A DNA stretch of 64,000 bases from Bacteroidota bacterium (lineage in GTDB: Bacteria; Bacteroidota; Bacteroidia; NS11-12g; UBA955), in contig JAMLHC010000001.1 of the NCBI GenBank assembly GCA_023957335.1, positions 1 through 64,000 on the forward strand. The letters are read 5' to 3'. Below, piece by piece: positions 29,301-58,319 of this stretch (within the stretch, counting starts at the first letter, position 1; every line of letters starts with the position of its first letter). Below the pieces are notes generated by a model, which was given only the letters and a program-made list of their open reading frames with translations, had not been told where the DNA came from and ran no database searches. A program made the translations under genes and the position numbers.

Positions 29301-29767
29301 GTCAAAGAGGATATACCTTTGACGTGCCTATTGCTGATGCGGACTATAAATGGTATTTTGGTGACGGGAAAGTGTCTAATGACAAACAACCTAATCACCA
29401 ATATCAAAATGACGGCAAATTCACTGTTAAATTGATTATTACCACCACAGAAGGTTGCCAATGCGAAAAAACAATAGAAAATATTGTTCAGAATCTTGAT
29501 GTGAAATCAGACTTCACGCTCAGTGGCTTTGCAGTTTATCCTAACCCAAGCACAGGAGTGATTACAATTGCTAACAGCAATAACACTGCAATAGCTAACA
29601 TCTCTATCTCCAACATATTGGGAGCTACTGTGATGAGCAATATTGAAAACAACGCCAACAGCGAATATAGTTTTGACCTTTCCGGTTTGGCTAACGGAGT
29701 ATATATGGTTAAAATAGTTACTGCCGACAACCAAGTGCTAACTCACAAGGTTGTGATTAGCAAGTAA
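26369..29767 (+). CDS. Giant secreted ALK-type glycine-rich/PKD protein 1 (T9SS)
   Basis: A 1132-residue protein. A long signal peptide ends near residue 40 (TLLNGQ). Residues about 43-315 form a glycine-rich domain: it opens FTNCGATGFKGPSQAQINTAY, has VPASGYYKINAVGAQG, and then many GGGGGG runs. This pattern matches the bacterial form of the ALK/LTK glycine-rich domain. A CARDB-like domain follows (YEYEVTFKNNGPDD near 345), then at least four PKD units marked by WDFGDGTTS, WSFGDENSS, WDMGDGTTY and WYFGDGKVS, and a T9SS type A tail from YPNPSTG near 1056. It is expected on or outside the cell surface. First of three tandem paralogs. Confidence 0.88.
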   Translation: MTKHYELLKRLTSLHFKYPTLLRTTFAMAVLMSGTLLNGQLVYKFTNCGATGFKGPSQAQINTAYALTPLNGLVTSSNGIQLFTVPASGYYKINAVGAQGFNAQSGYNGGKGASMTGEFYLIGGSTLKIVVGQQGQGTSGSNGGGGGGSFVTYSDNTPLVIAGGGAGSRAAVSQNSCDGRTSKEGGAMAISSTSSCGPRSGGLETGGAISASWGSGGGGLVGNGANDYGNGGKSFINGANGGDGGSCGAADGGFGGGGSGSGCNGGGGGGGYSGGDGGYMAGGGGSINNGTNQVNIAGANTGMGRVDITVISVGLADIEPIFIKPITPVVNTMCVRTKYEYEVTFKNNGPDDASFIDFEVTAPGMTKLEYSFFDIRDLASGASKTYKLPASDKVSFGSTGTQGLTLNITRVWSDGDDTTNNIITTNYNVVSLPYGTNFTPAAGFPGFIKVDAPTLVTHDKTYRYDFTPPTGYSNSGYGTTWSAGFYGIMDNDPLPSSRYNLVPPVGGNNGYLTLKLSKEDIDKNITFYFTIKEFVSGKCDSIISRDLHVAPMPDVSYEDVGGCLGSELQFVNNSSIPSGTILSTKWDFGDGTTSDLFSPQKTFNTKGIYFVKMVATSDLGFADSVIKQINVIETPVADFSFDNQCGLTPYQFINKSTLASGTLSYVWSFGDENSSTDKDPTHIYNNPGPYEVTLSAISDNGCHSEITKSIYNYPNPIVNFTIPAQACLNSSVLLNNQTTIKFSSWGSQWNYEQGVKSTFEKNPSVKFSSVGTQSVTLKVTTQFGCVDSMTKTISVIDAPAINLSTSDVCSNSPIVFHSGINNPDTSIGFIWNIDGILYPDRTPSVQFDSAGEYNMSLTVNYANGCSDYKSSTVKTGYRPNTQFDIASTTCAGNPIGLSNNTSVQFGKYHSYWDMGDGTTYSDINTPNHTYTNTTPGSYQITLIATSKNGICPDTFTKTVNVGIVPSCAFNINHDWTYGQRGYTFDVPIADADYKWYFGDGKVSNDKQPNHQYQNDGKFTVKLIITTTEGCQCEKTIENIVQNLDVKSDFTLSGFAVYPNPSTGVITIANSNNTAIANISISNILGATVMSNIENNANSEYSFDLSGLANGVYMVKIVTADNQVLTHKVVISK
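28109..28344 (+). repeat. Conversion tract shared by PKD genes 1 and 2 (copy 1)
   Basis: 236 bases identical to 31818-32053 except for one silent-looking T/A difference. It encodes the PKD unit around WDFGDGTTS. Identity continues more loosely for 150 bases downstream. Confidence 0.85.
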
Positions 29768-29790
29768 AACCTCGTATAGAATTATATTGC

Positions 29791-29823
29791 AAAAAAGCCT
29801 TCCCACATAGGGGAGGCTTTTTT
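29791..29823 (+). terminator. Terminator after PKD gene 1
   Basis: Stem aaaaaagccttccc with ggggaggctttttt around a short loop, followed by T residues. It begins 23 bases after the stop. The same 3' segment occurs after the two paralogs. Confidence 0.85.
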
Positions 29824-29984
29824 GTTGATATGATTTAAGAATTATAATCCGATACCGAGAAGTCTATACTTTGAAGCCGTTTATCCTTTTAAAATGTACA
29901 AATGCAAAAAAAAGTGATTTCAATTAAAAAAAGACCTATATTAGCGCACTTAAAATTAACAATGAAATATCAAATATATCAAAC

Positions 29985-32900
29985 ATGAATCACTATTACA
30001 ATTCACGAGGAAAGTTCTCCTCTATCAGTAGGATTACACGCAAGCAAATTTTGTGTTTTTCCATTAAAAAAAGTGCTTTTGTCATTGCGGTACTGTTAAG
30101 TAGTAGCGCATTATTTGGACAACAAGTTTTTAAATTTACCAATGCCGGTGCAGTCGGACAAACAGGACCATCACAGGCACAAATTAACACAGCCTATACA
30201 TCAACAAATTTAGATGGCAAAGTAACTTGTCTTAATGGTTATCAATATTGGACAGTGCCTGCATCTGGAATGTACCGAATAAAAGCTGCCGGTGCTGCCG
30301 GTGGAATTATTAGCAGCAGCAATGCAGGCCAAGGTGCAATTATGGAGGCTGATTTAATGTTAATTGGAGGACAAGTACTTAAAATACTTGTAGGACAAAA
30401 AGGCAACTCTAGCGCAAGCGGTTCGGGATCTGGCGGTGGCGGTACATTTGTCGCCACAAGTGATGATGTTCCTCTTGTCGTTGCAGGTGGCGGTGGGGGA
30501 CGATATGACCAAAGTTCATCATTATACAATGCAAATGCAGTAACCAATAATGATGCACAAAAATCCGGGTGTAACAGTGGTGGCAGTGCGGGGACCAATG
30601 GCAACGGAGGCCAAGGTTGCAGCAATAATGGTGCGGCCGGTGGCGGTGGTTTTTTTACAAATGGAACAACAACCTCTTGGGGAACATTTGGCTACTCATT
30701 TATTAATGGAGGAAAAGGTGGCAATACCAGTTATGACCCCAATTGCATAGGTGGATTTGGCGGTGGTGGTGGCACACACGGTAACACCGGTGGCGGTGGC
30801 GGTGGTGGCGGATATTCAGGTGGTGGTGGCGGCTACCACAGCACTTCTGATGGCAGTGGCGGTGGCGGTGGCTCTTTTGTTCTCACTACTGCACTTAAAC
30901 TTAATACTTCCAATGGAAAATACAATAATTCTTCTACTTTCAATGGTGATGTTGTGGGTAATTTGAACGAAATGAATAAAGATCATGGTTATGTTGACAT
31001 TACAATCATTAGTGTAGGAAATTCTGACATAGAAGCAGTTTCTATTAAACCCATCACGCCTATAGCAAACACTATGTGTGTTAGAACAAAATACGAATAC
31101 GAAGTTACTTTTAAAAACAACGGACCCGATGATGCGTCTTATATCAACTTTGAGGTTACTGCTCCGGGTATGACAAAATTAGAATATAATTTCTTTGACA
31201 TCAGAGACCTTGCAAATGGAGCTACTAAAACATACAAAATTGCTGCTCCCGATAAAATTTCTTGTAATGCAACCGGTAGTCAAGGTTTAACATTGAATAT
31301 TACTAAGGTATTGAGTGATGGAGATAACGCTTCAAACAATTTAGTTACCACGTATTACAATGTGGTTTCATTACCTTACGGAACTGATTTCACACCGGCT
31401 GCCGGATTCCCCGGATTCATAAAAGTGGATCAGCCAACATTAGTAACTCATGACAAAACCTACCGATATGATTTTACTCCTCCTACAGGGTATGCCAACT
31501 CAGGATATGGGACAACATGGAGTACAAGTTTCTATGGCATTATTGACAATGAGCCTCTCCCTTCAGACAGATATAATATTATTCCCCCAGCCGGTAGTAT
31601 CAATGGTTATCTTACACTTAAACTTAAGAAGGAAGATATTGACAAAAACATTACTTTCTTCTTTACTGTTAAAGAATTTGTTTTGGGCAAATGCGATTCT
31701 ATCATTTCCAGAGACTTGCATGTTGCACCAATGCCCGATGTAAGCTATGAAGATGTGGGTGGATGCTTAGGCTCTGAACTTCAGTTTATCAACAACTCTT
31801 CTATTGCTTCCGGAACAATCCTTTCTACAAAGTGGGATTTTGGAGACGGAACAACCTCGGATTTATTCTCTCCACAAAAAACCTTTAACACCAAAGGCAT
31901 CTATTTTGTCAAAATGGTGGCAACCTCAGATTTGGGATTTGCTGATTCTGTTATCAAACAAATCAATGTGATTGAAACCCCGGTTGCAGACTTCTCATTT
32001 GACAATCAGTGTGGACTAACACCATATCAGTTTATCAACAAGAGTACTTTGGCTGCTGGCACCCTTACTTATGTTTGGAACTTTGGTGACGAAAACAGTA
32101 GTACAGATAAAGACCCTACACATATATATAATAATCCGGGACCTTATGAAGTTACACTTTCTGCAATCTCGGATAATGGATGTCATTCTGAAATTACCAA
32201 GGCTATTTACAGCTATCCAAATTCAGTTCCTAACTTTGACTTACCGGTTAGCATTTGTGCTAACCAAACTGTTAATATTCTCAATAAGACTACTATCCCA
32301 TTCTCATCTTGGGGTAGCGAATGGTCTTCTGAAAATATTGCAAACAGAACTTTTGACAAGAACCCTACACTAACATTCTCTCAAGCAGGACAACAATGGG
32401 TTAAACTTAAAGTTACTACTCAATTCGGATGTGTGGATTCTATCGTAAAAATGGCTAATGTTATTCCGGGTCCCGGCATTGACATCTCATACTCTGATGT
32501 ATGTTCTAACACTCCGGTTACGTTCCACAGCGGTATTCAAAAACCGAATAACATACAAGTGGACTATTTCTGGAACGTGGGTGGAAGTCTATCTGCTAAG
32601 TCTGACCCTACTTTCAACATCGGTAAAGCCGGAAAATACAATGTTAACTTGACTGTTACTTATGATAATGCTTGTGTTGCTTCCCAATCTATGGTTGTTG
32701 AAACCGGATATAGACCTCAAGCTGATTTCTCTCTTCCTGATGTGAACTGTGCCGGCAGTCCTATCAGCGTTTCTAACAACACTACTATCAGTTTTGGCAA
32801 AGCGGTATATTATTGGGATATGGGCGATGGTGCTACATACAACCAGATGATTACGCCTAATCACACATACACCAACGCAACTCCTACGCAATATACGATT

Positions 32901-33479
32901 ACATTAGTTGCCACTTCTGAAAATGGCGTTTGTCCTGACACTGTTTCTAAAAACATCATGATTGGCGTGGTTCCTTCTTGTAATTTCAATATCACACATG
33001 ATTGGACTTATGGACAGAGAGGTTATACTTTTGAACCTGAACAAGCAGGTGCTGAATATAAATGGTACTTCGGGGACGGACTGCTTTCTACACAAGAATC
33101 TCCGGTTCACCAATTTCCACGTGATGGCAAATTCCCTGTTAAATTGATTGTTACCTCCCCTGAAGGATGTCAGTGTGAACAAACGCTTGACCATGTAGTA
33201 GAGAATCTTGATGTGAAATCAGACTTCGCACTCAGTGGTTTTGCGGTTTACCCTAACCCTAGCACAGGAATGATTACAATTACCAATCACAATAATACTG
33301 CAATAGCTAACATCTCCATTTCCAACATGCTTGGAGCTACTGTAATGAGCAAAGTTGAAAGCAACTCCAACAGCGAATACAGTTTTGACCTTTCCGATAT
33401 GTCTAACGGAGTATATATGGTTAAAATAGTTACTGCCGACAACCAAGTGCTAACTCACAAGGTTGTGATTAGCAAGTAA
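29985..33479 (+). CDS. Giant secreted ALK-type glycine-rich/PKD protein 2 (T9SS)
   Basis: A 1164-residue paralog with the same order of domains: signal peptide ending ALFGQ near residue 45, ALK/LTK-like glycine-rich domain (FTNAGAVGQTGPSQAQINTA onward, about residues 48-340, the longest Gly region of the three), CARDB-like domain, PKD units (WDFGDGTTS, WNFGDENSS, WDMGDGATY, WYFGDGLLS) and a T9SS tail from YPNPSTG. It is a mosaic: the middle matches gene 1 at nearly every base, and the last 1.27 kb matches gene 3. It has its own leader and terminator, so it is likely a separate transcript. Confidence 0.88.
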   Translation: MNHYYNSRGKFSSISRITRKQILCFSIKKSAFVIAVLLSSSALFGQQVFKFTNAGAVGQTGPSQAQINTAYTSTNLDGKVTCLNGYQYWTVPASGMYRIKAAGAAGGIISSSNAGQGAIMEADLMLIGGQVLKILVGQKGNSSASGSGSGGGGTFVATSDDVPLVVAGGGGGRYDQSSSLYNANAVTNNDAQKSGCNSGGSAGTNGNGGQGCSNNGAAGGGGFFTNGTTTSWGTFGYSFINGGKGGNTSYDPNCIGGFGGGGGTHGNTGGGGGGGGYSGGGGGYHSTSDGSGGGGGSFVLTTALKLNTSNGKYNNSSTFNGDVVGNLNEMNKDHGYVDITIISVGNSDIEAVSIKPITPIANTMCVRTKYEYEVTFKNNGPDDASYINFEVTAPGMTKLEYNFFDIRDLANGATKTYKIAAPDKISCNATGSQGLTLNITKVLSDGDNASNNLVTTYYNVVSLPYGTDFTPAAGFPGFIKVDQPTLVTHDKTYRYDFTPPTGYANSGYGTTWSTSFYGIIDNEPLPSDRYNIIPPAGSINGYLTLKLKKEDIDKNITFFFTVKEFVLGKCDSIISRDLHVAPMPDVSYEDVGGCLGSELQFINNSSIASGTILSTKWDFGDGTTSDLFSPQKTFNTKGIYFVKMVATSDLGFADSVIKQINVIETPVADFSFDNQCGLTPYQFINKSTLAAGTLTYVWNFGDENSSTDKDPTHIYNNPGPYEVTLSAISDNGCHSEITKAIYSYPNSVPNFDLPVSICANQTVNILNKTTIPFSSWGSEWSSENIANRTFDKNPTLTFSQAGQQWVKLKVTTQFGCVDSIVKMANVIPGPGIDISYSDVCSNTPVTFHSGIQKPNNIQVDYFWNVGGSLSAKSDPTFNIGKAGKYNVNLTVTYDNACVASQSMVVETGYRPQADFSLPDVNCAGSPISVSNNTTISFGKAVYYWDMGDGATYNQMITPNHTYTNATPTQYTITLVATSENGVCPDTVSKNIMIGVVPSCNFNITHDWTYGQRGYTFEPEQAGAEYKWYFGDGLLSTQESPVHQFPRDGKFPVKLIVTSPEGCQCEQTLDHVVENLDVKSDFALSGFAVYPNPSTGMITITNHNNTAIANISISNMLGATVMSKVESNSNSEYSFDLSDMSNGVYMVKIVTADNQVLTHKVVISK
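31818..32053 (+). repeat. Conversion tract shared by PKD genes 1 and 2 (copy 2)
   Basis: Counterpart of 28109-28344, with one mismatch in 236 bases. The flanks diverge at synonymous positions, which marks the tract edges. Confidence 0.85.
32213..33479 (+). repeat. Conversion tract shared by PKD genes 2 and 3 (copy 1)
   Basis: Nearly identical to 35817-37080, with a 3-base length difference near 32335. A patch around 32670-32760 is clearly more divergent, so the identity is patchwork. It encodes the last PKD units and the sorting tail. Confidence 0.85.
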
Positions 33480-33502
33480 AACCTCGTATAGAATTATATT
33501 AC

Positions 33503-33535
33503 AAAAAAGCCTCCCAAGATTTGGGAGGCTTTTTT
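33503..33535 (+). terminator. Terminator after PKD gene 2
   Basis: Stem aaaaaagcctccca with tgggaggctttttt and a short loop, followed by T residues, 23 bases after the stop. The preceding sequence acctcgtatagaattatatt is shared with gene 1. Confidence 0.87.
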
Positions 33536-33687
33536 GTTTCTATGGCTTGATATCCATGCACAGTAATTTATATATCTATATTTTAAGGGGGCTTTTCCTT
33601 TAAATAAAAAAATGGTGGAAATTGCAATTGAATTAGAATAATTACTAATTTAGCAAACTTAAAATTACAATTAACAATAATACTATT

Positions 33688-36600
33688 ATGACACACAACT
33701 ACAACACAAGTCTAAATTCCTCTTTCGAGGAAAATAGATTACCCTTAAAAAGACCATTTGAAATGGTCAAAAGAGTATTGGGTTTTAAAGCGACACTACT
33801 TGCTCTTGTATTGAGTTGCAGCAATATAGCAATTGCTCAAACTTATACTTTTACCAATTGCGGGGCGACCGGCAGATTGGGACCTACTCAGGGACAAGTC
33901 AACACCACTTATGGCTCAACTACATTGAACGGACAAGTTACATCCTATGCTGGTATTCAGAGTTGGCACGTGCCTGATGACGGCACTTATCAAATTACTG
34001 TTGCCGGAGCCAAAGGAGGAGACAAAAACTCAGGCTCGTTGGTAGGTGGTAAAGGAGCCATAATGGAAGGGGTTTTTGATTTAAATGCCGGAGAAGAAAT
34101 CTGGATTTTGGTTGGACAATCAGGTAATACGGGATCCGGTGGTGGTGGTGGTGGTGCAACTTATGTTGTAAATAAAACCACAGGAACAATATTAATTGTT
34201 GCCGGAGGTGGCGGAGGTGCTATGAATCAAGATGGCAAACCCGGATTAAAAACCAACAATGGCACGCAAAATGGCGGTGCGGCACAAGGCGTTATTGCTA
34301 CCTCAGGAGGGGGATATAAACTCGATGGTAATTTAGGTGGTAGCGCGAGCAGTTATGGCATTACTCCCGGTAAGTCATTTTTAAATGGTGGTGAAGGCGG
34401 AAAAGGCAGTTCATCCCCTAGCTCTGACGGAGGATTTGGAGGGGGCGGTGGCTGCCACGCAAGTTGCGGTGGCTCATGTGGTGCAGGCGGTGGAGGCGGT
34501 TATAATGGTGGCGACCAAGTATATGATTACGGATTAGGAGGTGGATCTTATAATAGCGGACTCATGCAAAATAATGTAGAAGGTGGTAACAATGGTCAAG
34601 GATATGCAGAATTCATTACCTTAGCTACTAAGAACTCCGATATTGAAGTAGTGAATGTTCAGCCGGTGATTGTAAACGCTCCCGGTATTTTATGCCATAA
34701 TAATGAGTATGATATTGACGTAACCCTTACCAGTAATGGACCCGGAAAACGCTCTTTTGTAGATGTAAGTGTTGCGATGCCGGGTGCAGCAGGAATTACC
34801 ATTAAATTTTTTGATATTAGCACTCTCGAAGTTGGAACAACTAAAACATTTAGAATTCCAAATTACAAACTCAAACCAACCCTTTTGGGCAATCAACCAC
34901 TTACATTTACTGTATTGAGCTCCGATCAGGATAATACCAACAATACCAAAGTGGTAAATTTTGATGTAACAACCCTACCTTCGGGTTCTGATTTTATCCC
35001 TGACGTTTCTTTCCCCGGATTCCCTAAGAGTGGTTCTCCTGACCTTGTAACACATGACAAAACCTTTATTTATCACTTCTCTCCTCCAACCGGATACAGT
35101 AATACTGGTTACGGAACAACATGGTCTGCAAAATTTGCAGCTACTATTGACAACGAACCATTACCTACTAACCGATACACATTCAACCCTCCTTCAGGTT
35201 CAAATAATGCTTATGTTTCTGTCAAGTTCAAAGAAGAGGATGTTGATAAAGCAGTTAACTTAATATTTACAGTTTCCGATAAGACTTATGGTAAATGTGA
35301 CTCCACTATAATTCGCGACCTTCATGTAGCTCCGATGCCCAAAGTTGCCACACAAGATGCGGGAGGATGTTTGGGCACAGTTTTACAATTTGTTAATCTA
35401 ACAGAAATAGCTTCGGGTACTATTATATCTACAAAATGGGATTTTGGAGACGGAACTACTTCTACTGATTTTGCACCTCAAAAGACATACTCTTCAAAAG
35501 GATTCTATACTGTTAAAATGGTAGCAACCTCAGACTTGGGATTTGCAGATTCTGTTATTAAAGTTGTTGAGGTGATTGAGAGCCCCGTTGCCGGTTTTAC
35601 TTTTGAAAATCAATGCGGGTCAACTCCAATGCAGTTTAATAATACAAGTACTATTGCTGTAGGCGTATTGTCATATACTTGGGATTTTGGAGATGAGACT
35701 ACAAGCACTGATAACAGTCCGACACACATTTACAATGTTCCGGGACCTTATGAAGTTACTTTAACTACCACTTCTGATAAAGGATGTGCTAATTCGGTTA
35801 CCAAATCTGTTTACAACTATCCAAATTCAGTTCCTAACTTTGACTTACCGGTCAGCATTTGCGCTAACCAAACTGTTAATATTCTCAATAAGACTACTAT
35901 CCCATTCTCATCTTGGGGAAGCGAATGGTCTTCTGAACATTCAAACAGAACTTTTGACAAGAACCCTACACTAACATTCTCTCAAGCAGGACAACAATGG
36001 GTTAAACTTAAAGTTACTACTCAATTCGGATGTGTGGATTCTATTGTAAAAATGGCTAATGTTATTCCGGGTCCCGGCATTGACATCTCATACTCTGATG
36101 TATGTTCTAACACTCCGGTTACTTTCCACAGCGGTATTCAAAAACCGAATAACATACAAGTGGACTATTTCTGGAACGTGGGTGGAAGTCTATCTGCTAA
36201 GTCTGACCCTACTTTCAACATCGGCAAAGCCGGAAAATACAATGTTAACTTGACTGTTACTTATGATAATGCTTGTGCTGCTTCAAAATCTATTGTGGTG
36301 GAAACAGGGTACAGACCTCTTGCTGATTTCTCTTTGGCTGACGTGAATTGCGCAGGCAGTCCTATCAGCGTTTCTAACAACACTACTATCAGTTTTGGCA
36401 AAGCGGTATATTATTGGGATATGGGCGATGGTGCTACATACAACCAGATGATTACGCCTAATCACACATACACCAACGCAACTCCTACGCAATATACGAT
36501 TACATTAGTTGCCACTTCTGAAAATGGCGTTTGTCCTGACACTGTTTCTAAAAACATCATGATTGGCGTGGTTCCTTCTTGTAATTTCAATATCACACAT

Positions 36601-37080
36601 GATTGGACTTATGGACAGAGAGGTTATACTTTTGAACCTGAACAAGCAGGTGCTGAATATAAATGGTACTTCGGTGACGGACTGCTTTCTACACAAAAAT
36701 CTCCGGTTCACCAATTCCCGCGTGATAGTAAATTCCCTGTCAAATTGATTGTTACCTCCCCTGAAGGATGTCAGTGTGAAAAAACACTTGACTTAGTAGT
36801 AGAGAATCTTGATGTGAAATCAGACTTCGCACTCAGTGGTTTTGCGGTTTATCCTAACCCTAGCACAGGAGTGATTACAATTACCAATCACAATAACACT
36901 GCAATTGCTAACATCTCTATTTCCAACATGCTCGGAGCTACTATGATGAGCAAAGTTGAAAGCAACTCCAACAGCGAATACAGTTTCGACCTTTCGGGCT
37001 TGGCTAACGGAGTGTATATGGTAAAAATCGTTACGGCTGACAAGCAAGTGCTAACTCACAAAGTGGTGATTAGCAAGTAA
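33688..37080 (+). CDS. Giant secreted ALK-type glycine-rich/PKD protein 3 (T9SS)
   Basis: A 1130-residue paralog. The signal peptide ends NIAIAQ near residue 50 after an unusually long polar n-region. The glycine-rich domain opens FTNCGATGRLGPTQGQVNTTY and includes VPDDGTYQITVAGAKGG; the CARDB-like and PKD units follow (WDFGDGTTS, WDFGDETTS, WDMGDGATY, WYFGDGLLS), then the T9SS tail. Its first 60 percent is the most diverged of the trio, its last 40 percent almost identical to gene 2. A weak promoter with TAATTTAG near 33649 and TTG about 21 bases before it may drive it. Confidence 0.88.
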   Translation: MTHNYNTSLNSSFEENRLPLKRPFEMVKRVLGFKATLLALVLSCSNIAIAQTYTFTNCGATGRLGPTQGQVNTTYGSTTLNGQVTSYAGIQSWHVPDDGTYQITVAGAKGGDKNSGSLVGGKGAIMEGVFDLNAGEEIWILVGQSGNTGSGGGGGGATYVVNKTTGTILIVAGGGGGAMNQDGKPGLKTNNGTQNGGAAQGVIATSGGGYKLDGNLGGSASSYGITPGKSFLNGGEGGKGSSSPSSDGGFGGGGGCHASCGGSCGAGGGGGYNGGDQVYDYGLGGGSYNSGLMQNNVEGGNNGQGYAEFITLATKNSDIEVVNVQPVIVNAPGILCHNNEYDIDVTLTSNGPGKRSFVDVSVAMPGAAGITIKFFDISTLEVGTTKTFRIPNYKLKPTLLGNQPLTFTVLSSDQDNTNNTKVVNFDVTTLPSGSDFIPDVSFPGFPKSGSPDLVTHDKTFIYHFSPPTGYSNTGYGTTWSAKFAATIDNEPLPTNRYTFNPPSGSNNAYVSVKFKEEDVDKAVNLIFTVSDKTYGKCDSTIIRDLHVAPMPKVATQDAGGCLGTVLQFVNLTEIASGTIISTKWDFGDGTTSTDFAPQKTYSSKGFYTVKMVATSDLGFADSVIKVVEVIESPVAGFTFENQCGSTPMQFNNTSTIAVGVLSYTWDFGDETTSTDNSPTHIYNVPGPYEVTLTTTSDKGCANSVTKSVYNYPNSVPNFDLPVSICANQTVNILNKTTIPFSSWGSEWSSEHSNRTFDKNPTLTFSQAGQQWVKLKVTTQFGCVDSIVKMANVIPGPGIDISYSDVCSNTPVTFHSGIQKPNNIQVDYFWNVGGSLSAKSDPTFNIGKAGKYNVNLTVTYDNACAASKSIVVETGYRPLADFSLADVNCAGSPISVSNNTTISFGKAVYYWDMGDGATYNQMITPNHTYTNATPTQYTITLVATSENGVCPDTVSKNIMIGVVPSCNFNITHDWTYGQRGYTFEPEQAGAEYKWYFGDGLLSTQKSPVHQFPRDSKFPVKLIVTSPEGCQCEKTLDLVVENLDVKSDFALSGFAVYPNPSTGVITITNHNNTAIANISISNMLGATMMSKVESNSNSEYSFDLSGLANGVYMVKIVTADKQVLTHKVVISK
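35817..37080 (+). repeat. Conversion tract shared by PKD genes 2 and 3 (copy 2)
   Basis: Counterpart of 32213-33479. Identity continues past the stop codon into aacctcgaatagaatta, with only a few changes. Confidence 0.85.
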
Positions 37081-48631: not shown

Positions 48632-51600
48632 TTATTCCTTCACAATTTTGACAACTTGTCCGTCTATCTTCAAGAAATAGATTCCATTGGAGAAAGAAGT
48701 TATATCAATATTTGTCTTTGCATTTTGCGTAACGCCATTTAATAAAATTCTTCCTTGAATATCTGTAATCGTGTATTGGCTTTCGGCTTGGGTTTCTATT
48801 GTAAATAATCCACTTACCGGATTAGGATAGACATTAAAAATTTGACCGGGTATTTGTTTAAAATTCACAAAACGAATTGGACTACGTGTAGTATTTCCAT
48901 CCAAATCCACTTGAACAAGTCGGTAGTAGTTTATCACATTTGGAGTATTATCTATAAATGAATAGTCGGTTTGAGAATAGCTGTTACCATGACCTTGTAC
49001 CACTCCAATTTGTTCCCAAAATACTCCATCTTCACTTCTCATTACTCTAAACTCTTGGTTGTTTTCTTCTTGAGCAGTTTGCCACATAAGATTTACTTTG
49101 TTATGTTGATAGTCCGGAACAGCATCAAAGGAAATGAGTTCAATAGGCAAAGGAATTGCATTTTCACCGATTGCAAAAGGTGAAAACGAGCCCGTATATC
49201 CGGTGTGCGTAAGTGTTTTTCCCGAAGGCGAACCGGAGCCTGAAGTTGCAATCTCCCATTGCATGGTAACTGAGTTAAAATGGTTCAAAGTAGGAGTAGT
49301 AATTGCTACAGACTCCTCACCTACATTCCAATACAATTTAAAATCTACCCCACTTCCTCCATTCGCACTCGCTTTTCCTATATTCCATGTACGTTTTACG
49401 TGTGGCTCGGTCACAATCGTATTACCAGCACCATCATAATAAACCTCATCAATAATGTTAGCAGTAAAATCATCTCCTGAACCTGTATTATTGGTAATTT
49501 CAAGGGGATTATAAGCAGACTTGCCGATAGGGAAAAAGGCAGTTGCTGTATTTGCAACCGTCATTTTAACTATACCTGTACCGCTTGTCTTTACATAATT
49601 GTTTGCATCCGACCCTACAAAAGAACCTGCTGTCAGGTCATGATTGCCCAACACAATTAACTTGTCAGCTCCGTTGAAGTCCACCTTACCCACAGTTTTG
49701 TTATTGTCTAAGACTACGTTGGAGTGTGCTGTATCGCTGAATTTAACATCTTCTCCTGTGCCGGGAACTGTTTTAAAAATCCAATTTGAGGCTGTCGCCC
49801 AGTCAGAATTGGTAACCCCCACCCATTCATTAACACAAGCGGGGTCTGCACCGCCATCAGTGATAGACCAAGACTTACCTGTTACCAAAGCGGTGTGCGC
49901 GGCAGTTCCATACACAGTAGAATAGGTAATACTTGTAGCCTCCAATGTTATATTGCTTGGGGCAGTCCCCCCCGCTACCCAACCCCTCAAGGTAAGGGTA
50001 TAATTGACACAACCCATACCGGAAAAATTAAAATAGGGTGCATAAGGAGTGCCGGGTGCAATTCCGCTTAAATCCCAGTTTCCTAAATTTTGGTCAAAAC
50101 CACTAGCACCAGTAAACATATTCTGAAAGTTAGTCACTTTAGAAACATCCCATGCACCTATGTTTTGGTTAAAAGCAGTGGCAGAATTAAACATTGCATA
50201 CATATCAGTCACATTAGACACATCCCATGCACCTATGTTTTGGTTAAAAGCAGCGGCAGAATTAAACATGCTATACATATTAGTCACTTTAGAAACATCC
50301 CATGCACTTATGTTTTGGTTAAAGAAATTGGCATAACTAAACATTGCAGCCATATCTGTCACATTAGATACATCCCATGAACCAATATTTTGGTTAAAGT
50401 TAGGTGCACTTTCAAACATTGCAAACATATTAGTCACATTCGTAGTATGCCATGCCCAATTCGCTCCTACACCAAATAGTGAAGTACATCCACTAAACAT
50501 AAATTCAACATTAGAAACATTTTTCAATAATGGTGTATCTGTTGCCGTAACATCTAAATTTGAACAACCACGGAAAGCACCATCAAAACTCTTCCAATCT
50601 ATTTTACCCCATTGGGCAACTTTGGTAATTTTGTCTTTATCTCCCGTGCTATTAAAATAGATACTAGGAAAATCACCCATGATATATACTTTATACGTAT
50701 CTCCGTTCTGCAAACCTGTCATGGTGTAGCTACCTGTCTGATTAAGAGCCATTCCATCGCCTACACCGGCATTGGTCATATTCATCCAATAAACATCATA
50801 ATTATAACCGGCTCCCGTAGTGGGTATGGTCAAATTACCGGAAGCCGGGGCTGTCCATTCTGTAATGAAATCACCGATAGAACAAGCCGAACTCGCGCCT
50901 CCATCAGTGATTGACCATGATTTTGTGCCAGATAAATAATCCCTGTAAGTCTGAGCAGCCGGGTGATATTTAACAGAAGCCGCGCCTAATGAAATGGTAC
51001 TTGGGGCATATCCACCGTTTGCCCAACCGTAAAGAGTCTGTGCATAATTATTACAATCTAATCCTGAAGATGACAACATACTTGTCATGTTTGCAACAGA
51101 CGAAATATTCCAAGAACCCAAATTTTGATTGAAAGCACCGGCAAATGCAAACATGGATTGCATGGTCGTTACCTTAGATACATCCCATGAAGCAAGATTC
51201 TGATTAAATGAAGTTGCAGAGTTAAACATGTTTGACATATTAGTAACCTTTGACACATTCCATGAACCTATATTTTGATTAAAAGTACTAGCTACCCGAA
51301 ACATATCTCCCATATTAGCAACATTTGATACATTCCATGAACCTAAATTTTGGTTAAAGGAGGTGGCATTGTAGAACATAGCTGCCATTGAAGTTGCCTT
51401 TGACACAACCCAAGAACCAATATTTTGATTGAAGGAACTTGCACCGGCAAACATCCACATAAAATTTACAACATTTGACACATCCCAAGAACCAATATTT
51501 TGATTGAAGGAACTTGCACTGTTAAACATAAACATCATAGAGGTAATCGTTTTGGTATGCCATGCCCAGTTAGCGCCTATACCTTTGAGTGTTGTACAAC

Positions 51601-53476
51601 CACTAAACATATAAGAAGTATTAATAACATTTTTCAATAATGGCGTATCTATAGCTGTAACATCCATCTTTGAACAACCATAGAATGACTTTTCAAAACT
51701 CTTCCAATCTATTTTACCCCATTGGGTTACTTTCGTAATTTTAGATGTATCTCCGGTATTATTAAAATAAATTCTTGGGAACAAACCCGTGATTTCTATT
51801 CTATAAGTATGTCCAGACACTAAATTACTTATTTGAAAATTTCCGGTTTGATGCATGGTAAAATTCTGACTAATCTCCATATCGCTCATGTCCGAAATCA
51901 CATAATGATAATCGTACCCGGAGCCGTTGGTCGGTATTGTAATTTTACCATCAGCGGTTGCTTTCCACTCAGTAATAAACGGATCTGGCAATGCGTGAGG
52001 TTCATACTTGGCAAGGAAAATATCCATCGGTTTATTAGAGTTAACAAGCACATTAATTCCACGTTTGTCAATATCCGCATTCATATCAATCTTACCTGAG
52101 AATCCACCGGTGATAAATACATTGCCGTCTGCATCGGATGTTATCCCATTAGCGTGATTATATTTTTCATCCCCAAAATCGTATGCCCATTTTATATATC
52201 CTTTCGAATCATATTTAGCCATAAATATATTGTCACTACCCCTGCCTTTCAATGTTCTCTTGTTGGTGCCATCCGGATCAAAGTCAACATAACCCATAAA
52301 AAATCCGGCAACCAAAATATTGTCTTTAGGGTCAAATTTAACGGAACGACCTTCATCGTACTTGGCATCTCCAAAGCCAAACACCCAATATAACTTAGCT
52401 AATTCATCATATTTAGCAAGGAAAATATCCTGCTCACCATTACTGCTAATATAGCCACCGGAACCATAAGGGTCAAAGTTTACCTTTTCTCTAAAAAAAC
52501 CGGTTAATGCAATATTGTTTTTTGAATCAATAGCAACAGACGTCCCTGCTTCAGGTCCTTTATCCCCAAAACCAAAAGACCAGACATGTTTACTATTATC
52601 TTCATACTTAGCCATGAATATATCTTTGTCATCCACTGCTTTTAACCAGTTTCCTGAACCCAAGGGATCAAAATCTGCTTTGTCCATAAAGTAGCCGGTG
52701 ATTATAATATTATCTTTTGAATCAATAGCTACTCCGTGTCCTTCATCATCATATGTTGAACCTATATTAAATGCCCAAATATATGTACCTGCATCATCAT
52801 ATTTGGCTATAAAAATATCTCTTTCTCCATTGGATGCAAGATAGTTGCCATTGGAAGGATCAAAATCAGGTTTCTCCTTAAAATATCCGGTTACAATGAT
52901 TGAATTTTTAGAATCAATTGCCACAGAATGACCCTCATCATCTTCTATATCACCAATTCCTTTTGCCCAAATAAAAGAACCGTCCGGTTTATACTTTGCA
53001 ATAAAAATATCTCTTTTTCCATTAGATGTAAGATTACTTCCATTGGAAGGGTCAAAATCCACAGTTGCCATAAAATATCCCGTGATAATTACATTCTGAT
53101 CTCCATCCAGTGCCACAGACAAGCCTTCATCTGTTTTCGTATCTCCAAAACTACGTGCCCAAATGAGATTGCCAAGCTTATCATACTTTGCAAGAAATAT
53201 ATCTTTATCCCCATTCGAAGAAAGTGTAAGTAGTGAAGGCGGGTTATTAGGGTCTATCCCGAAATCAACTTTGCTTTCGAAACTGCCGGTGATATAGACA
53301 TTGCCATCTTTGTCTGTTGCAACGGCATTACCTCTGTCCTCATAATCACCTGAAGCGTCACCCATTCCTAATGAGAATTTATGTTCGGCAACTTGGGTTT
53401 GTGCATTAACATTAGGAAATGTCAACAGTGTGCAAAATCCGAAGACAAATACGATTTGTAAAAATGATTTTTTCAT
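48632..53476 (-). CDS. 1614-residue T9SS protein, SBBP propeller and BspA-type repeats
   Basis: Signal peptide ending PNVNAQ near residue 26. Residues about 30-510 are seven SBBP-type beta-propeller units, each about 65 residues with a marker such as IFIAKYDDAG. Next come two similar blocks: each starts FITEWxAxxxGxxxIPTxGxGYxY and then has 25-residue DUF285/BspA-type leucine-rich units with FNQNIGSWDVSNVTNM, six in block 1 and five in block 2. A later section is typical of Bacteroidota surface proteins (GNHDLTAGSF, NPLEITNNTGSGDDF), a fibronectin-like region follows, and a T9SS type A tail starts at YPNPVSG. The protein is predicted to be outside the cell; adhesion is the best guess. Confidence 0.9.
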   Translation of the reverse strand: MKKSFLQIVFVFGFCTLLTFPNVNAQTQVAEHKFSLGMGDASGDYEDRGNAVATDKDGNVYITGSFESKVDFGIDPNNPPSLLTLSSNGDKDIFLAKYDKLGNLIWARSFGDTKTDEGLSVALDGDQNVIITGYFMATVDFDPSNGSNLTSNGKRDIFIAKYKPDGSFIWAKGIGDIEDDEGHSVAIDSKNSIIVTGYFKEKPDFDPSNGNYLASNGERDIFIAKYDDAGTYIWAFNIGSTYDDEGHGVAIDSKDNIIITGYFMDKADFDPLGSGNWLKAVDDKDIFMAKYEDNSKHVWSFGFGDKGPEAGTSVAIDSKNNIALTGFFREKVNFDPYGSGGYISSNGEQDIFLAKYDELAKLYWVFGFGDAKYDEGRSVKFDPKDNILVAGFFMGYVDFDPDGTNKRTLKGRGSDNIFMAKYDSKGYIKWAYDFGDEKYNHANGITSDADGNVFITGGFSGKIDMNADIDKRGINVLVNSNKPMDIFLAKYEPHALPDPFITEWKATADGKITIPTNGSGYDYHYVISDMSDMEISQNFTMHQTGNFQISNLVSGHTYRIEITGLFPRIYFNNTGDTSKITKVTQWGKIDWKSFEKSFYGCSKMDVTAIDTPLLKNVINTSYMFSGCTTLKGIGANWAWHTKTITSMMFMFNSASSFNQNIGSWDVSNVVNFMWMFAGASSFNQNIGSWVVSKATSMAAMFYNATSFNQNLGSWNVSNVANMGDMFRVASTFNQNIGSWNVSKVTNMSNMFNSATSFNQNLASWDVSKVTTMQSMFAFAGAFNQNLGSWNISSVANMTSMLSSSGLDCNNYAQTLYGWANGGYAPSTISLGAASVKYHPAAQTYRDYLSGTKSWSITDGGASSACSIGDFITEWTAPASGNLTIPTTGAGYNYDVYWMNMTNAGVGDGMALNQTGSYTMTGLQNGDTYKVYIMGDFPSIYFNSTGDKDKITKVAQWGKIDWKSFDGAFRGCSNLDVTATDTPLLKNVSNVEFMFSGCTSLFGVGANWAWHTTNVTNMFAMFESAPNFNQNIGSWDVSNVTDMAAMFSYANFFNQNISAWDVSKVTNMYSMFNSAAAFNQNIGAWDVSNVTDMYAMFNSATAFNQNIGAWDVSKVTNFQNMFTGASGFDQNLGNWDLSGIAPGTPYAPYFNFSGMGCVNYTLTLRGWVAGGTAPSNITLEATSITYSTVYGTAAHTALVTGKSWSITDGGADPACVNEWVGVTNSDWATASNWIFKTVPGTGEDVKFSDTAHSNVVLDNNKTVGKVDFNGADKLIVLGNHDLTAGSFVGSDANNYVKTSGTGIVKMTVANTATAFFPIGKSAYNPLEITNNTGSGDDFTANIIDEVYYDGAGNTIVTEPHVKRTWNIGKASANGGSGVDFKLYWNVGEESVAITTPTLNHFNSVTMQWEIATSGSGSPSGKTLTHTGYTGSFSPFAIGENAIPLPIELISFDAVPDYQHNKVNLMWQTAQEENNQEFRVMRSEDGVFWEQIGVVQGHGNSYSQTDYSFIDNTPNVINYYRLVQVDLDGNTTRSPIRFVNFKQIPGQIFNVYPNPVSGLFTIETQAESQYTITDIQGRILLNGVTQNAKTNIDITSFSNGIYFLKIDGQVVKIVKE
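50090..50420 (-). repeat. 75-base unit array encoding BspA-type repeats, block 2
   Basis: Five tandem units of about 75 bases, recognisable by plus-strand catcccatgcacctatgtt and attttggttaaa at regular spacing. The first three are nearly identical, a sign of recent unit duplication. Confidence 0.8.
51080..51540 (-). repeat. 75-base unit array encoding BspA-type repeats, block 1
   Basis: Six tandem units of about 75 bases with the core ccaatattttgattgaa on the plus strand. They are more diverged from each other than those of the 50.1-50.4 kb array. Confidence 0.8.
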
Positions 53477-53788: not shown

Positions 53789-54808
53789 TTATTTTACCAC
53801 CCTTTCAACTTCAAACTTAGGATATCCGGTTTGCTTGTTTTCGTTATAAAAATCGAGGAAGCGCAGTTTGTAATAATCCCCTTTAGTATTTTTAACAATA
53901 TAGACTGTGTTTGGATTCATGGTATAATCAAAAGAGACAGTATAATCAAAGGTCTTCCAAGCATATCCAATAATATCTTGTCGAGTTGTGTAATCTTTGT
54001 GTTGACAAACAGCTAAGTTAATTTTGTCATAACCAATGACAGTATCTATAGAAACTGAAACATTGTGAGGGTTAAGCAAACAACCGGTAACAAGATAAGG
54101 GAATGGTTCTGTGGGGTTGGGGTCTATATAAAAAATAAAGCGATAGCGTGTAAACACAAAGTCCCATTCATTGTTATCCGGTTCATAATCGGTAGCAATC
54201 TGTCCGTTCCGTATATTGAGATAAGTAAAATTTCGGTCTTTGTTTCTCGCAAAATCAATGGTTTGAGCAGAATCAGGACTTGACAATTTTCCTAATTCAA
54301 CTTTGTAATGAGTTTCATCGGCTTCAAGTACTTTGATAAAATAATAACGTTGTGCCGCACTGAGATTGCGCCCCATATCAAGGATATGATAAGGCATATT
54401 ATTTCCGTACAATTTAGTCCAATCGCCAAAGGCATTGCTATCAATGCTTCCATTAGGAAAATCATATAACCACTGTTTGAGCGGAATCTGAGCCGGCTTG
54501 ATTGTATTCAGTTCATTTCGGTTATGAATATTGGTGCGTGCTACAAAAATATTACGACCATAGTTGGAAACAACCTTAAACTGATTGGTAATATTATCAA
54601 AAGCTAAATCCCAGTCATTAAGGTCTTTTTTGGAATAGGTTAAATCTTCTAATTTGAAAAACAATTGATTTTGATATGCATCACCCATATAAACCGACAT
54701 TACCTCTGACTCAGTTTGTGGCAGGGTAAGGGGTTTATCTTCTTTGAAACAAGAGCTAAGCAGCAATAACAAAGGGCTTAATATCAGTATGCGGCAATGA
54801 ATTTTCAT
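53789..54808 (-). CDS. HmuY family lipoprotein
   Basis: A 339-residue lipoprotein: signal ending LLLSSC|FKED near residue 20. Two HmuY-type beta domains are visible through repeats of the kind NDWDLAFDN near residue 65 and NEWDFVFTRYRF near 218, and GYAWKTFDY near 283. HmuY proteins of Bacteroidota bind heme at the surface and hand it to a TonB receptor. The coordinating histidines cannot be identified with confidence. The gene ends an operon with a TonB receptor immediately upstream and a T9SS HmuY-like gene before that. Confidence 0.83.
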   Translation of the reverse strand: MKIHCRILILSPLLLLLSSCFKEDKPLTLPQTESEVMSVYMGDAYQNQLFFKLEDLTYSKKDLNDWDLAFDNITNQFKVVSNYGRNIFVARTNIHNRNELNTIKPAQIPLKQWLYDFPNGSIDSNAFGDWTKLYGNNMPYHILDMGRNLSAAQRYYFIKVLEADETHYKVELGKLSSPDSAQTIDFARNKDRNFTYLNIRNGQIATDYEPDNNEWDFVFTRYRFIFYIDPNPTEPFPYLVTGCLLNPHNVSVSIDTVIGYDKINLAVCQHKDYTTRQDIIGYAWKTFDYTVSFDYTMNPNTVYIVKNTKGDYYKLRFLDFYNENKQTGYPKFEVERVVK

Positions 54809-56836
54809 TTAAAGTGTGTAAGAAATTTTGATAAAAAACGAACGTCCCGGAGAAAGCATCATACTGCTACCATTGCCGTGAAAACTATTAAAAGGATTGA
54901 TATTGGTAATATTGCGTACATTGAATATATTTTTAACACCGCTCACAACTTGTAGCTTATCTTTAAAAAATCCTTTAGAAAGTGTGAAGTCCATAAAAGT
55001 CATTGCACCTGAAAAATATTCGCTCACAGCACCTTGTTCATTCATAATATAGTTTACAAACTTGCCATTATGCTTGAGAAACAATGCGGCTTTGACACCG
55101 GTTTTCTTAATATCATAGCTTGCAGACACGGTGATATCAGGTGTAAGATAATAATCTTTTCCGGTTTGACTACTGAATTGGTTTCGCACAATCATTCCTC
55201 CTGCAGCCATTTCTAAATAAAGTTTTTTGTAAAATAATTTATGTTCAAACATCATCCCGCCACCTTGGAAGCGCCCGTAATTTTCATAAGAGTAAAGGTT
55301 TTGGGCTTTGTCAATCAATACCAAACCTATCATATCACGTACATCATTGTAGTAAGAACTTGCTCCGAAAGAGTAGGCAACTTTATTATGTGAGTTTTTA
55401 AAACTTGCGCCTAATTGAATGTTGTGAGAAAACTCCGGTGTCAAATTAGGATTCCCTTTGATATTATGGTTGATATCCACAAAGAGAAGCTTCTGTTCTT
55501 TGAGAGAGGGCGCTCTAAATCCGTTGCCATAAGAGCCTCGCACCTGCCATTTTTTATTTGGCTCCCACATTATATTGAGAGACGGTGTTAAAGGGGATGT
55601 AAAAATCGTATTATAGGCAACGCGCAATCCCGGCCGTACTCTAAGATATCTATTAAAATTATAATCCACCATAGCAAAAACCGCAAAATCACCCATGCTG
55701 AGTTTGTCTCCGTCTATTCTGTCTGCAATTGCCAAATCATAGTTAAAATCATAACCTGCAAGATAGTTTACTCTGCCTTTATTCCTATTGCTAAAAACAG
55801 CCCTTGCCATCACATTCACAAAGAGATTATTGGTGTTCTCATCAACATTATCAATGAGGTTTTGTTCCAGACTAACCATGTCTTTTCTGTAAACTCTTTT
55901 TTCCCTTTTGTAATGTGAAACTCCGTTAATCATATCAACCCTGATTTTGGGACTGATATTGAAGATTGTATTTACACTGTGAACCCCTCTGGTGGTAATA
56001 AAATAATCATCAAAAGCATAGGCAGATATGGGAGTAAGCACAAGATTCCCTTTGTTTTGTAAGGTTTCATGCAAGTAATCAGAGCGAAAATTCCACGTTG
56101 CTTTTTTGGATTCTCTAAAATAGCCGATGTTACCAAACCATTGTTCTCGGGGCTTCCACAAATAGGTTCTTTCTCCATTGTCGGTAGGAATTCCTGCAAA
56201 GAAATTTCGGGCAAGCCCGCCCAGAATGACAGCTTTCTCACCCAAAGGTTGTGCAGCCGAGGCACCAATGTTAATATTACCAATACTTTCGTTATAGCTG
56301 TATGCAGTAGCAGAAGTCTTCTTGAGAACCGGCTTTTTTGTAATAACATTAATTACTCCGCCAAGTGCGTCAGTACCATAGATAACAGACATTGGACCTT
56401 CAACAATTTCAATTCTATCTACATCTTCTAAGTTAATCTGGTCGAGATTGATATTGCCGTTCTCGCGTCCGGTGATGGGCATTCCGTTCACCAAAAATTT
56501 GATTTGCTGACCTGACAGATTTTGTAATGATACTGAACTGCCAAGCATATTGTCATTGGAAATCCTGATGTTGGATTGTCTGCCAAGCAAATCTCCCAAA
56601 TTTACAGCAGCCATTTGTTTGAAAGTCTCACCCGTAAGCACTCTGAATTTGACAATACTTTGGTTGGCTCGCACACTATTCCCTTGCCCGGTAATGACAA
56701 TTGGGTTTAGAATGGTATCTTGTGCAGGAGTAAGCGAGTCTTTGTCCACAACTGATTTAGCAGTGGCTGTATGGTTGAAAAATATAAATAAAGCAACAAA
56801 GCCGCACAATTTCTGTACGGCTCGCATTGCATTCAT
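54809..56836 (-). CDS. TonB-dependent receptor, HmuR-like
   Basis: A 675-residue receptor as started at the ATG at 56836 (a further ATG at 56827 is possible, and a TTG at 56866 would overlap the previous stop). A signal peptide ends HTATAKS near residue 28. The plug is standard: VRANQSIVKFRVLTGE near 60, INLDQINLEDVDRIEIVEGP, YGTDALGGVINVITKK near 150. The barrel ends SFFIKISYTL. There is no CarboxypepD domain. The gene sits between two HmuY-type genes, so heme or another HmuY ligand is the expected substrate; the next gene starts one base after its stop. Confidence 0.87.
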   Translation of the reverse strand: MNAMRAVQKLCGFVALFIFFNHTATAKSVVDKDSLTPAQDTILNPIVITGQGNSVRANQSIVKFRVLTGETFKQMAAVNLGDLLGRQSNIRISNDNMLGSSVSLQNLSGQQIKFLVNGMPITGRENGNINLDQINLEDVDRIEIVEGPMSVIYGTDALGGVINVITKKPVLKKTSATAYSYNESIGNINIGASAAQPLGEKAVILGGLARNFFAGIPTDNGERTYLWKPREQWFGNIGYFRESKKATWNFRSDYLHETLQNKGNLVLTPISAYAFDDYFITTRGVHSVNTIFNISPKIRVDMINGVSHYKREKRVYRKDMVSLEQNLIDNVDENTNNLFVNVMARAVFSNRNKGRVNYLAGYDFNYDLAIADRIDGDKLSMGDFAVFAMVDYNFNRYLRVRPGLRVAYNTIFTSPLTPSLNIMWEPNKKWQVRGSYGNGFRAPSLKEQKLLFVDINHNIKGNPNLTPEFSHNIQLGASFKNSHNKVAYSFGASSYYNDVRDMIGLVLIDKAQNLYSYENYGRFQGGGMMFEHKLFYKKLYLEMAAGGMIVRNQFSSQTGKDYYLTPDITVSASYDIKKTGVKAALFLKHNGKFVNYIMNEQGAVSEYFSGAMTFMDFTLSKGFFKDKLQVVSGVKNIFNVRNITNINPFNSFHGNGSSMMLSPGRSFFIKISYTL

Positions 56837-56862
56837 CTTATTAATTATTAACCAATCAGTTG

Positions 56863-58167
56863 TCAATTCGTTTTTATAATTTTTGAAGTAAATACTTCAT
56901 TTTGTTGGATGACTCTGAGTATGTACAAACCATTGTTCAGAGCAGACATATCAATTTTGTTGTTAGCCGGGCTAATAACTGAGTTTAAAAGCACTCTGCC
57001 GTTCATGTCTAACACCTCAACCTGAGCATTTTGTTCAGTTTGTACAAACAATGTTGAAGTTACAGGATTTGGATAAGTTCTAACATTTGACAATGAGATA
57101 CTTGCCACTCCATCAACAGGACCTGACGGTTTTGCTTGTTTTTGGAATTGAAAATTCATTCTCACATTAGCAGAACCACCGTATTTGTTGAAATGCAATA
57201 AATAAAGCGTATCACCACCGTTGTCAATCACAAAAGACAGTGAGTCTTCATAAACATAAGTGTTTTTAAATAATTTCCAGTCATATCCGATATTATCAAT
57301 ATTCTCGGAAAAATTTCTTACGGCAGACCAAGCAGAGTCAGGGTGTACATCAGTTATTCTTGCTACTTTTACTCCCTTCTTTTGAAGTGAACCAGAAACT
57401 GACATATACTGCCATTGCATTTGGTTTAATATAGGATTGTAACCCGCTGCATAAGTATAGTAGTTAGTAAAGACAACATCCCAATCTGCCTTAGAAGGCT
57501 CCAAATTCTTCACACTGTTACTTGCTAAATCATAGTACACAAAGTATCTGTCGGGATAATCGCTCTTTTTAATGGAGTCAGAATGTTGATTATTGTTGTC
57601 CAAATCAGCATAAGTAAAGTGATATACATTATCACCTTCTAAATCTCCAAAATATAGTTTTCTATAAACATTGCCTCTCACAATAAGATAAACTTTGCCT
57701 ACTGACTTAATAGCATGGGTACCCTCTTCGTAATTACCCCATCCGTAATATGGACCTCCCATACTAGGGGGTACTGTTAAATCTAAACCTGTATTAAAAG
57801 CACCCATATCCCATGATGTGTCTGAGTCAAGCAGTTCAGTCCATGATGTTTTGAAATTGGTTGTATCCAAGGTTGCAAACCCTGAAACATCAACTGAATC
57901 GGGAGCTACATATACCTTAACAGTTTTTCCGTTGTTAACACGGATTGTGGTTGCTTGCACGGTAGAATTAGGAATTACAATGTTTTGAACAGAGAATGCT
58001 AAATCCCAATTAACAGCATCTGAAATATGCTGATTTTGTGTCTTGAATGAATAATAAATTTGCTTGGCGGATTTGTTTTCCAATGTAACAGAATCTTCAA
58101 TCCAGCCCTGTGCATTAGCCGAGAAGCTAAATGCAACAGTCATTACTATTAATAAATTTCTTCTCAT
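56863..58167 (-). CDS. HmuY-like protein with T9SS sorting tail
   Basis: A 434-residue secreted protein: signal peptide ending FSANAQ near residue 20, then two HmuY-like beta domains with NWDLAFSVQN near 54 and DWDVVFTNYYTYA near 230, and a T9SS type A tail from YPNPVTS near residue 365. HmuY proteins are normally lipoproteins; here a C-terminal sorting signal replaces the lipid anchor, so it would be released or attached at the surface by another route. It leads the operon, with an exact -7 box upstream at 58190. Confidence 0.83.
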   Translation of the reverse strand: MRRNLLIVMTVAFSFSANAQGWIEDSVTLENKSAKQIYYSFKTQNQHISDAVNWDLAFSVQNIVIPNSTVQATTIRVNNGKTVKVYVAPDSVDVSGFATLDTTNFKTSWTELLDSDTSWDMGAFNTGLDLTVPPSMGGPYYGWGNYEEGTHAIKSVGKVYLIVRGNVYRKLYFGDLEGDNVYHFTYADLDNNNQHSDSIKKSDYPDRYFVYYDLASNSVKNLEPSKADWDVVFTNYYTYAAGYNPILNQMQWQYMSVSGSLQKKGVKVARITDVHPDSAWSAVRNFSENIDNIGYDWKLFKNTYVYEDSLSFVIDNGGDTLYLLHFNKYGGSANVRMNFQFQKQAKPSGPVDGVASISLSNVRTYPNPVTSTLFVQTEQNAQVEVLDMNGRVLLNSVISPANNKIDMSALNNGLYILRVIQQNEVFTSKIIKTN

Positions 58168-58189: not shown

Positions 58190-58197
58190 CAAAAGTA
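58190..58197 (-). promoter_or_regulatory. -7 promoter box TACTTTTG for the HmuY/TonB operon
   Basis: On the minus strand TACTTTTG, an exact TAnnTTTG, 22 bases before the ATG. A TTG lies 16 bases upstream of it, somewhat closer than usual. Confidence 0.5.
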
Positions 58198-58319
58198 AGA
58201 ACGCGATTGAGAGCAACATCATGTTTGAGTGTCAAGACACTAAAAATGACAATTCCATGACAAAACACATTTTTCACTCATCCTCACATAAAAGCTAAAA
58301 AAGGATATTTCGCACAAAC

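Follow-up and report, generated by a model that had tools for sequence, protein, structure and literature searches.

A putative two-tier heme importer in apparently heme-auxotrophic Bacteroidota: two HmuY-like proteins around one TonB-dependent receptor

HmuY proteins are usually lipoproteins, a point on which the original prediction for this locus was right. The locus raises the question of what two HmuY-like proteins do around a single TonB-dependent receptor when one of them ends in a T9SS tail and the other begins with a lipobox. It lies in a window of 64,000 nucleotides (the whole stretch of Bacteroidota DNA that was analysed), in which the list of open reading frames places three genes on the minus strand, in the order P1, receptor and P3:

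56863..58167, minus strand: P1, a predicted secreted protein of 434 aa (open reading frame), with a Sec signal at about residues 1-19, two HmuY-like repeats at about 20-345 and a T9SS type A tail at about 361-434
56866..57087, minus strand: T9SS C-terminal sorting domain of P1 (PF18962 / TIGR04183)
54809..56866, minus strand: TonB-dependent receptor (open reading frame and domain models), 685 aa from a TTG start, with the first in-frame ATG at 56836
53789..54808, minus strand: P3, a predicted lipoprotein of 339 aa (open reading frame) with Cys20 and HmuY-like repeats at about 27-177 and 179-339

The junction between P1 and the receptor is a 4-base overlap if the TTG start is used or 26 bases if the ATG start is used, and that between the receptor and P3 is 0 bases. 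Open reading frames and domain matches thus agree with the order and the 0-26 base junctions first proposed, as well as with a T9SS tail on the first gene and a lipobox on the third. The genes next to the operon in the window encode a tail-specific protease and a DUF285/T9SS protein. No heme genes flanking the operon, and no adjacent hmuS, T, U or V, were found within the window, so that the arrangement hmuYRSTUV is not seen here.

The reading favoured here, with a probability of roughly two in three, is a two-tier heme importer in which a catcher exported by the T9SS and a hand-over protein anchored by its lipid feed one receptor. P1 would be sent outside through Sec and the T9SS, where it would capture heme or strip hemoproteins of it. 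P3, held by its lipid on the outer membrane, would hand the heme to the TonB-dependent receptor, which would import it. The taxonomic order to which the host belongs would have lost heme synthesis and kept heme-using respiration, with the operon probably its main route for heme as a cofactor. We infer both a relay from P1 through P3 to the receptor and a dependence of growth on the operon.

Family, fold and repeats of P1 and P3

P3 belongs to the Pfam HmuY family (PF14064; 46.2 bits against a cut-off of 27, E 7.1e-12). The body of P1 scores 16.6 bits (E 0.0104), under the curated cut-off, and is therefore called HmuY-like rather than a Pfam member; its HmuY nature is argued from profile and fold comparison, not from the Pfam score. 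A Pfam HmuY search of the host's own genome gave matches at this locus only, with P3 above the cut-off and P1 under it. At E <= 0.01 the model matches 44 of 45 P3 relatives versus 17 of 49 P1 relatives, and P1 is, by sequence, more divergent from HmuY than P3 is. Profiles built from these relatives align with each other over 285 columns (E 3.8e-44). Against solved structures, the P3 profile matches 8b6a (2.2e-10) and 3h8t (6.8e-6), and the P1 profile matches the same two weakly (0.0023 and 0.045).

The original prediction proposed comparing the structures of both proteins with HmuY, and hinged on P1 having the HmuY fold. AlphaFold2 models were obtained for P3 (320 residues, mean pLDDT 93.2) and P1 (415 residues, mean pLDDT 92.7). 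All ten Foldseek matches of the P3 model to the PDB at E <= 0.001 are HmuY relatives, and a second aligner gave Z 15.5 to PinO (159 residues) and 15.4 to HmuY (138 residues). Foldseek alone found no HmuY match below E 0.001 for the P1 model, the best being PinO at 8.3e-3; the second aligner aligns 157 residues of P1 with PinO (Z 13.9, rmsd 4.8) and 132 with HmuY (Z 12.1, rmsd 3.0). A HmuY fold is thus predicted for both proteins, and the original prediction is supported on the point that could have refuted it.

Each protein consists of two repeats of about 150 residues with a common WDxxF core, and the first repeat matches the second at E 7.5e-7 in P3 and 3.1e-6 in P1. Neither protein is the single domain of about 180-200 aa typical of a classical HmuY; both are longer because each holds two repeats. 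As to whether each core is two separate HmuY folds side by side, matches to a single HmuY chain span both cores from first to last residue. Since the structural matches cover the whole core and the sequence repeats align end to end, the repeats may share strands, as judged from the match ranges alone.

Export signals, gene order and origin of the pair

The tail of P1 matches PF18962 (E 4.2e-13) and TIGR04183 (56.3 bits against a cut-off of 23, E 2.4e-15), its residues in the predicted model match T9SS substrate tails (8glj, Z 11.8), and PF18962 is present in 49 of 49 P1 relatives. P1 has the features expected of a T9SS type A cargo, namely a Sec-type signal peptide (judged by eye), a type A tail and a T9SS in the genome. 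SprA, the T9SS channel protein, was found through SprA_N in the host's own genome and in all 57 genomes from its genus, family and order. The N-terminus of P3 (...LLLLLSSC) is a lipobox, as expected of a lipoprotein, and its Cys is present in 74 of 74 aligned P3 sequences. These signals point to export of P1 via the T9SS and to lipid anchoring of P3. Tails of the same kind occur elsewhere in the window: a protein of 1614 aa that combines beta-propeller-type and DUF285 repeats with a T9SS tail lies directly downstream of P3 (48632-53476, minus strand), and three similar consecutive genes of 1130-1164 aa encode PKD domains and T9SS tails (26369-37080, plus strand).

Regions upstream of P1 were compared in 35 of the 55 loci introduced below, window included. 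Two features were identified in the window:

58190..58197, minus strand: TAnnTTTG element (TACTTTTG), 22 bases upstream of the P1 start
58228..58241, no strand assigned: AGTGTC-AA-GACACT, a perfect inverted repeat a little upstream of the TAnnTTTG element and a possible operator

TAnnTTTG, which we take to be the Bacteroidota-type -7 promoter element, is found in the 150 bases preceding P1 at 22 of the 35 loci, against 3.2 expected from shuffles, and this is consistent with one transcript from P1 onwards. An operator shared among the loci was rejected: the dyad is found in the window only (1/35 regions), and its arms were not found in the 34 others. The sole Rfam match in the window is a DUF805 cis-regulatory RNA at 451-518 on the plus strand (73 bits against 51.1).

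A search for the same three-gene order, also proposed originally, found it repeatedly. The near-relative set comprised 57 genomes drawn from the host's genus, family and order (two families), with matches to the tail only not counted as loci. Loci were taken from 54 of them, 55 loci in all with the window included; G022, G029 and G051 gave tail matches only and no locus. P1, receptor and P3 stand in this order at 49 loci and also at 2 more where P1 is broken or could not be read; the remaining 4 run into the end of a contig. As one genome has two loci, the 51 full-order loci correspond to 50 of 57 genomes, with 4 further genomes cut by contig ends and 3 in which the order was not found. The genome with two triads is G007 (L031 and L032), and P1 of one of them is interrupted by an in-frame stop.

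Beyond the near relatives, 84,980 species genomes were scanned with the P3 profile, and the best 80 of 300 confirmed places, partly the same records as the near relatives, were analysed. A tailed protein, a receptor and an untailed protein lie on one strand in 60 of these 80 loci (56 without complication, one whose first gene is broken, one whose start is set too far upstream for the lipobox to be seen, and two whose tailed gene runs off the end of the locus). Among the other loci of the best 80, 13 are without a tailed gene, several of these being cut by contig ends and 7/80 consisting of receptor and lipoprotein only; the lipoprotein alone was found in 6/80, and both HmuY-like genes without a receptor in 1/80. 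Matches in the scan include Flavobacteriales, Chitinophagaceae, Bacteroidales and one Kapaibacterium MAG, and a cultured strain among them is Brumimicrobium salinarum (L124). A phylum-wide draw gave matches in 28 of 198 genomes, several of them weak and single-domain. Across the class, at least 54 of the 84 genomes with the proteins have a second copy on the same strand, 1.8-8 kb upstream, a lower bound that leaves out the host's own genome. In three genomes of one family (f23; G077, G118 and G247) the HmuY-like genes are adjacent, and in G077 and the like the weaker, tailed-type match lies downstream of the lipoprotein-type one.

The 103 complete triads found (94 distinct) gave 188 cores, 94 tailed and 94 lipidated, for a tree in which all 188 split into P1 versus P3 with a support of 0.999. 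The distance matrices of P1, receptor and P3 correlate at r 0.82-0.85, a level reached by 0 of 500 permutations. A chance neighbourhood is ruled out by this co-inheritance and by the recurrence of the order near and far. On these sequence comparisons, P1 and P3 are ancient paralogs and the three-gene unit is very old; a single early duplication, after which each copy kept its role and the genes were inherited together, would explain both the clade split and the correlated distances.

Co-inheritance also bears on whether P1 binds a ligand at all. P1 could be a surface protein delivered by the T9SS that retains the HmuY-like scaffold, no longer binds, and serves in adhesion or receptor capping. 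This would fit the small share of P1 relatives recognised by the Pfam model and the frequency of T9SS-tailed proteins in the host's own genome, such as that at 48632-53476. The reading is nevertheless improbable, given that P1 cores are co-inherited with the receptor (r 0.83) and keep their invariant core residues, and that their place and order in the operon are constant.

A rather unlikely but weightier alternative is that the two proteins work in parallel, each binding heme and each passing it to the receptor, with P1 perhaps fixed to the surface by the T9SS sortase and differences between them that may lie in reach or ligand preference. P1 and P3 keep the same two-repeat core, T9SS cargo is reported to be anchored as well as released (PMC10202324), and the loci with receptor and lipoprotein only suggest that the lipoprotein may serve without P1. 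Against this, P1 and P3 form fully separate clades and are co-inherited, which suggests fixed, different roles, and in Riemerella the secreted RhuH is reported to take heme from hemoglobin, which the membrane protein RhuA cannot (PMC11967795). The relay from catcher to hand-over protein remains the preferred reading.

Precedents among known systems

Several features of the operon recall HmuY/HmuR of P. gingivalis (hmuYRSTUV), including the HmuY fold, a lipoprotein (P3), an adjacent TonB receptor and a heme-auxotrophic Bacteroidota host. Here, however, two HmuY-type proteins of two repeats each surround the receptor, one of them T9SS-tailed; hmuSTUV are not adjacent, and the ligands His134 and His166 are not recognisable. 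A T9SS tail on a HmuY protein has already been published for F. columnare, where C6N29_01035 combines Pfam HmuY with Por_Secre_tail, is stated to be T9SS-secreted and could be deleted without a growth defect (PMC9618737). It shares the HmuY part and the tail with P1; the portion of that report available describes no partner lipoprotein or flanking receptor (PMC9618737).

T9SS type A proteins are also reported to be co-transcribed or co-regulated with HmuY in two further species. For example, a T9SS-tail gene (POREN0001_0445) lies upstream within the hmu operon of P. endodontalis (PMC11208336), and in P. intermedia a T9SS-tail gene comes directly after that of HmuY, the two being more than 100-fold up under iron limitation (PMC10434189). 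Unlike P1, neither T9SS protein is reported as HmuY-like in the available parts of these sources, a distinction drawn from their descriptions (PMC11208336, PMC10434189). In F. psychrophilum, HfpR/HfpY likewise pairs a TonB receptor with a HmuY-related protein that binds heme; only one HmuY-like protein is described there, with an unknown gene between the two and no T9SS-tailed partner in the available text (PMC9331221).

The two-tier idea has a precedent as well. Riemerella anatipestifer is reported to encode the secreted hemophore RhuH, the membrane heme-binding protein RhuA and the TonB receptor RhuR at one locus, an example of secreted and membrane heme proteins working with one receptor (PMC11967795). 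RhuH (8XJC) is described as structurally distinct from HmuY, as sharing a bidirectional promoter with rhuR-rhuA and as present in OMVs (PMC11967795). In the operon described here, in contrast, both tiers are paralogs and lie on one strand. RhuH (8XJC) is absent among the solved-structure matches of P1 and P3, which is no proof of unrelatedness. Within the open-licence literature, no description was found of two HmuY-like proteins around one receptor with one of them T9SS-tailed, or of such an operon serving environmental heme auxotrophs as their route to heme. New here are two-repeat paralogs divided between T9SS and lipid anchoring around one receptor, and the link to heme auxotrophy. This makes the operon a clean case of one protein family, two export routes and one task.

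Heme need of the hosts and candidate cargo

Of the 57 near-relative genomes, G021 alone gave matches to ferrochelatase, to ALAD and to porphobilinogen deaminase, and none of the three was found in the other 56; control genomes gave matches. Incomplete assembly was rejected as the cause, the host's own genome being 99.95% complete and all three enzymes being absent in 47 of 48 good genomes. Heme-copper oxidases (COX1 family) are present in 54/57 genomes, with five matches in the host's own. Seemingly, then, these bacteria use heme and cannot make it, and because the synthesis enzymes were not found in 56/57 genomes where oxidases are present in 54/57, heme is probably imported of necessity.

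A draw of 217 genomes from the class, in which matches to the two-repeat profile were compared with the presence of ALAD, extends this picture. The proteins were found in 56 of 81 ALAD-negative versus 28 of 136 ALAD-positive genomes, leaving 25 of the 81 without them; the Fisher p of 1.4e-12 at species level is inflated by kinship, and the 32 families with the proteins divide into 13 wholly ALAD-negative, 14 wholly ALAD-positive and 5 mixed ones. The three-gene unit appears to occur mostly in bacteria that apparently cannot make heme.

Neighbouring genes, with Pfam names confirmed on representative proteins, add some evidence on the cargo. Of the best 80 of 300 loci, 7 encode a HemS/ChuX homolog close by and in the same orientation; other neighbours are an ABC ATPase with a FecCD permease in 6/80, a CbiX-like protein in 6/80 and a PepSY-type membrane protein in 5/80. 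At 54 near-relative loci such neighbours are all but absent, with one DUF6607 and one ABC ATPase, and HemS was not found in the host's own genome. That absence would fit hosts that take up heme to serve as a cofactor and not for its iron.

The ligand would be heme, although the residues do not resemble those of known HmuYs, which ligate iron by two His or two Met, a ligation not visible in P1 or P3. A conserved His/His or Met/Met pair was looked for in both and not found, and alignments of relatives contain no invariant His or Met in either body from which such a pair, or a His/Met one, could be read; H151 of P1 is kept in 47/57 and 33/49 sequences and M41 of P3 in 51/74. Tyrosines of P3 are conserved, Tyr45 and Tyr321 in 74/74 sequences and Tyr238 in 72/74. 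Among PDB entries, the closest to P3 by sequence is BfrB (8b6a), which is reported to bind heme most likely without iron coordination, to prefer protoporphyrin IX and to use conserved tyrosines, residues that matter for porphyrin binding in the HmuY family (PMC12106395).

These observations, together with the receptor, leave some room for another cargo, such as a porphyrin, cobalamin or an iron chelate, with the fold and gene order of HmuY retained. The receptor scores alike with hemin and B12 models and under every cut-off (TIGR01785, 100.5 vs 316.85 bits; TIGR01786, 96.9 vs 323.75; TonB-B12, 103.2 vs 599.7), and so is not placed among heme receptors by the NCBIfam models. The lack of conserved axial His or Met and the reported preference of BfrB for protoporphyrin IX (PMC12106395) point the same way. 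The HemS/ChuX neighbours point instead to heme, and metal-free protoporphyrin would supply none, because ferrochelatase was not found in 56/57 genomes. A cargo other than heme is therefore considered unlikely.

Unknown heme receptors have been postulated for environmental heme auxotrophs (PMC11139205). For these the heme importer proposed here is a concrete and easily recognised candidate, being near-universal in an order without detected heme-synthesis genes. Tentatively, it could be the missing outer-membrane heme system of environmental heme-auxotrophic Bacteroidota. An ancestral two-repeat HmuY would have duplicated around a receptor into a T9SS catcher and a lipid-anchored hand-over protein, a split kept since before the carrier orders diverged, perhaps with two porphyrin sites per protein that rely on tyrosine rather than His/Met ligation. 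The operon predicts that cultivation would be helped by added hemin or by the hemoprotein of neighbours.

Two kinds of neighbour deserve separate mention. At L107, L117, L131, L132, L148 and L149, CbiX-like proteins, several with a lipoprotein-like start, are encoded close to the tailed HmuY-like gene and the receptor or in the gap between them, and five of these loci also have the PepSY-type membrane protein; a chelatase step in heme handling is one possible role for them. Of the best 80 of 300 loci, 7 (L105, L120, L124, L133, L145, L154 and L159) encode a DUF6607 protein close by, which makes this family a candidate new partner of the operon.
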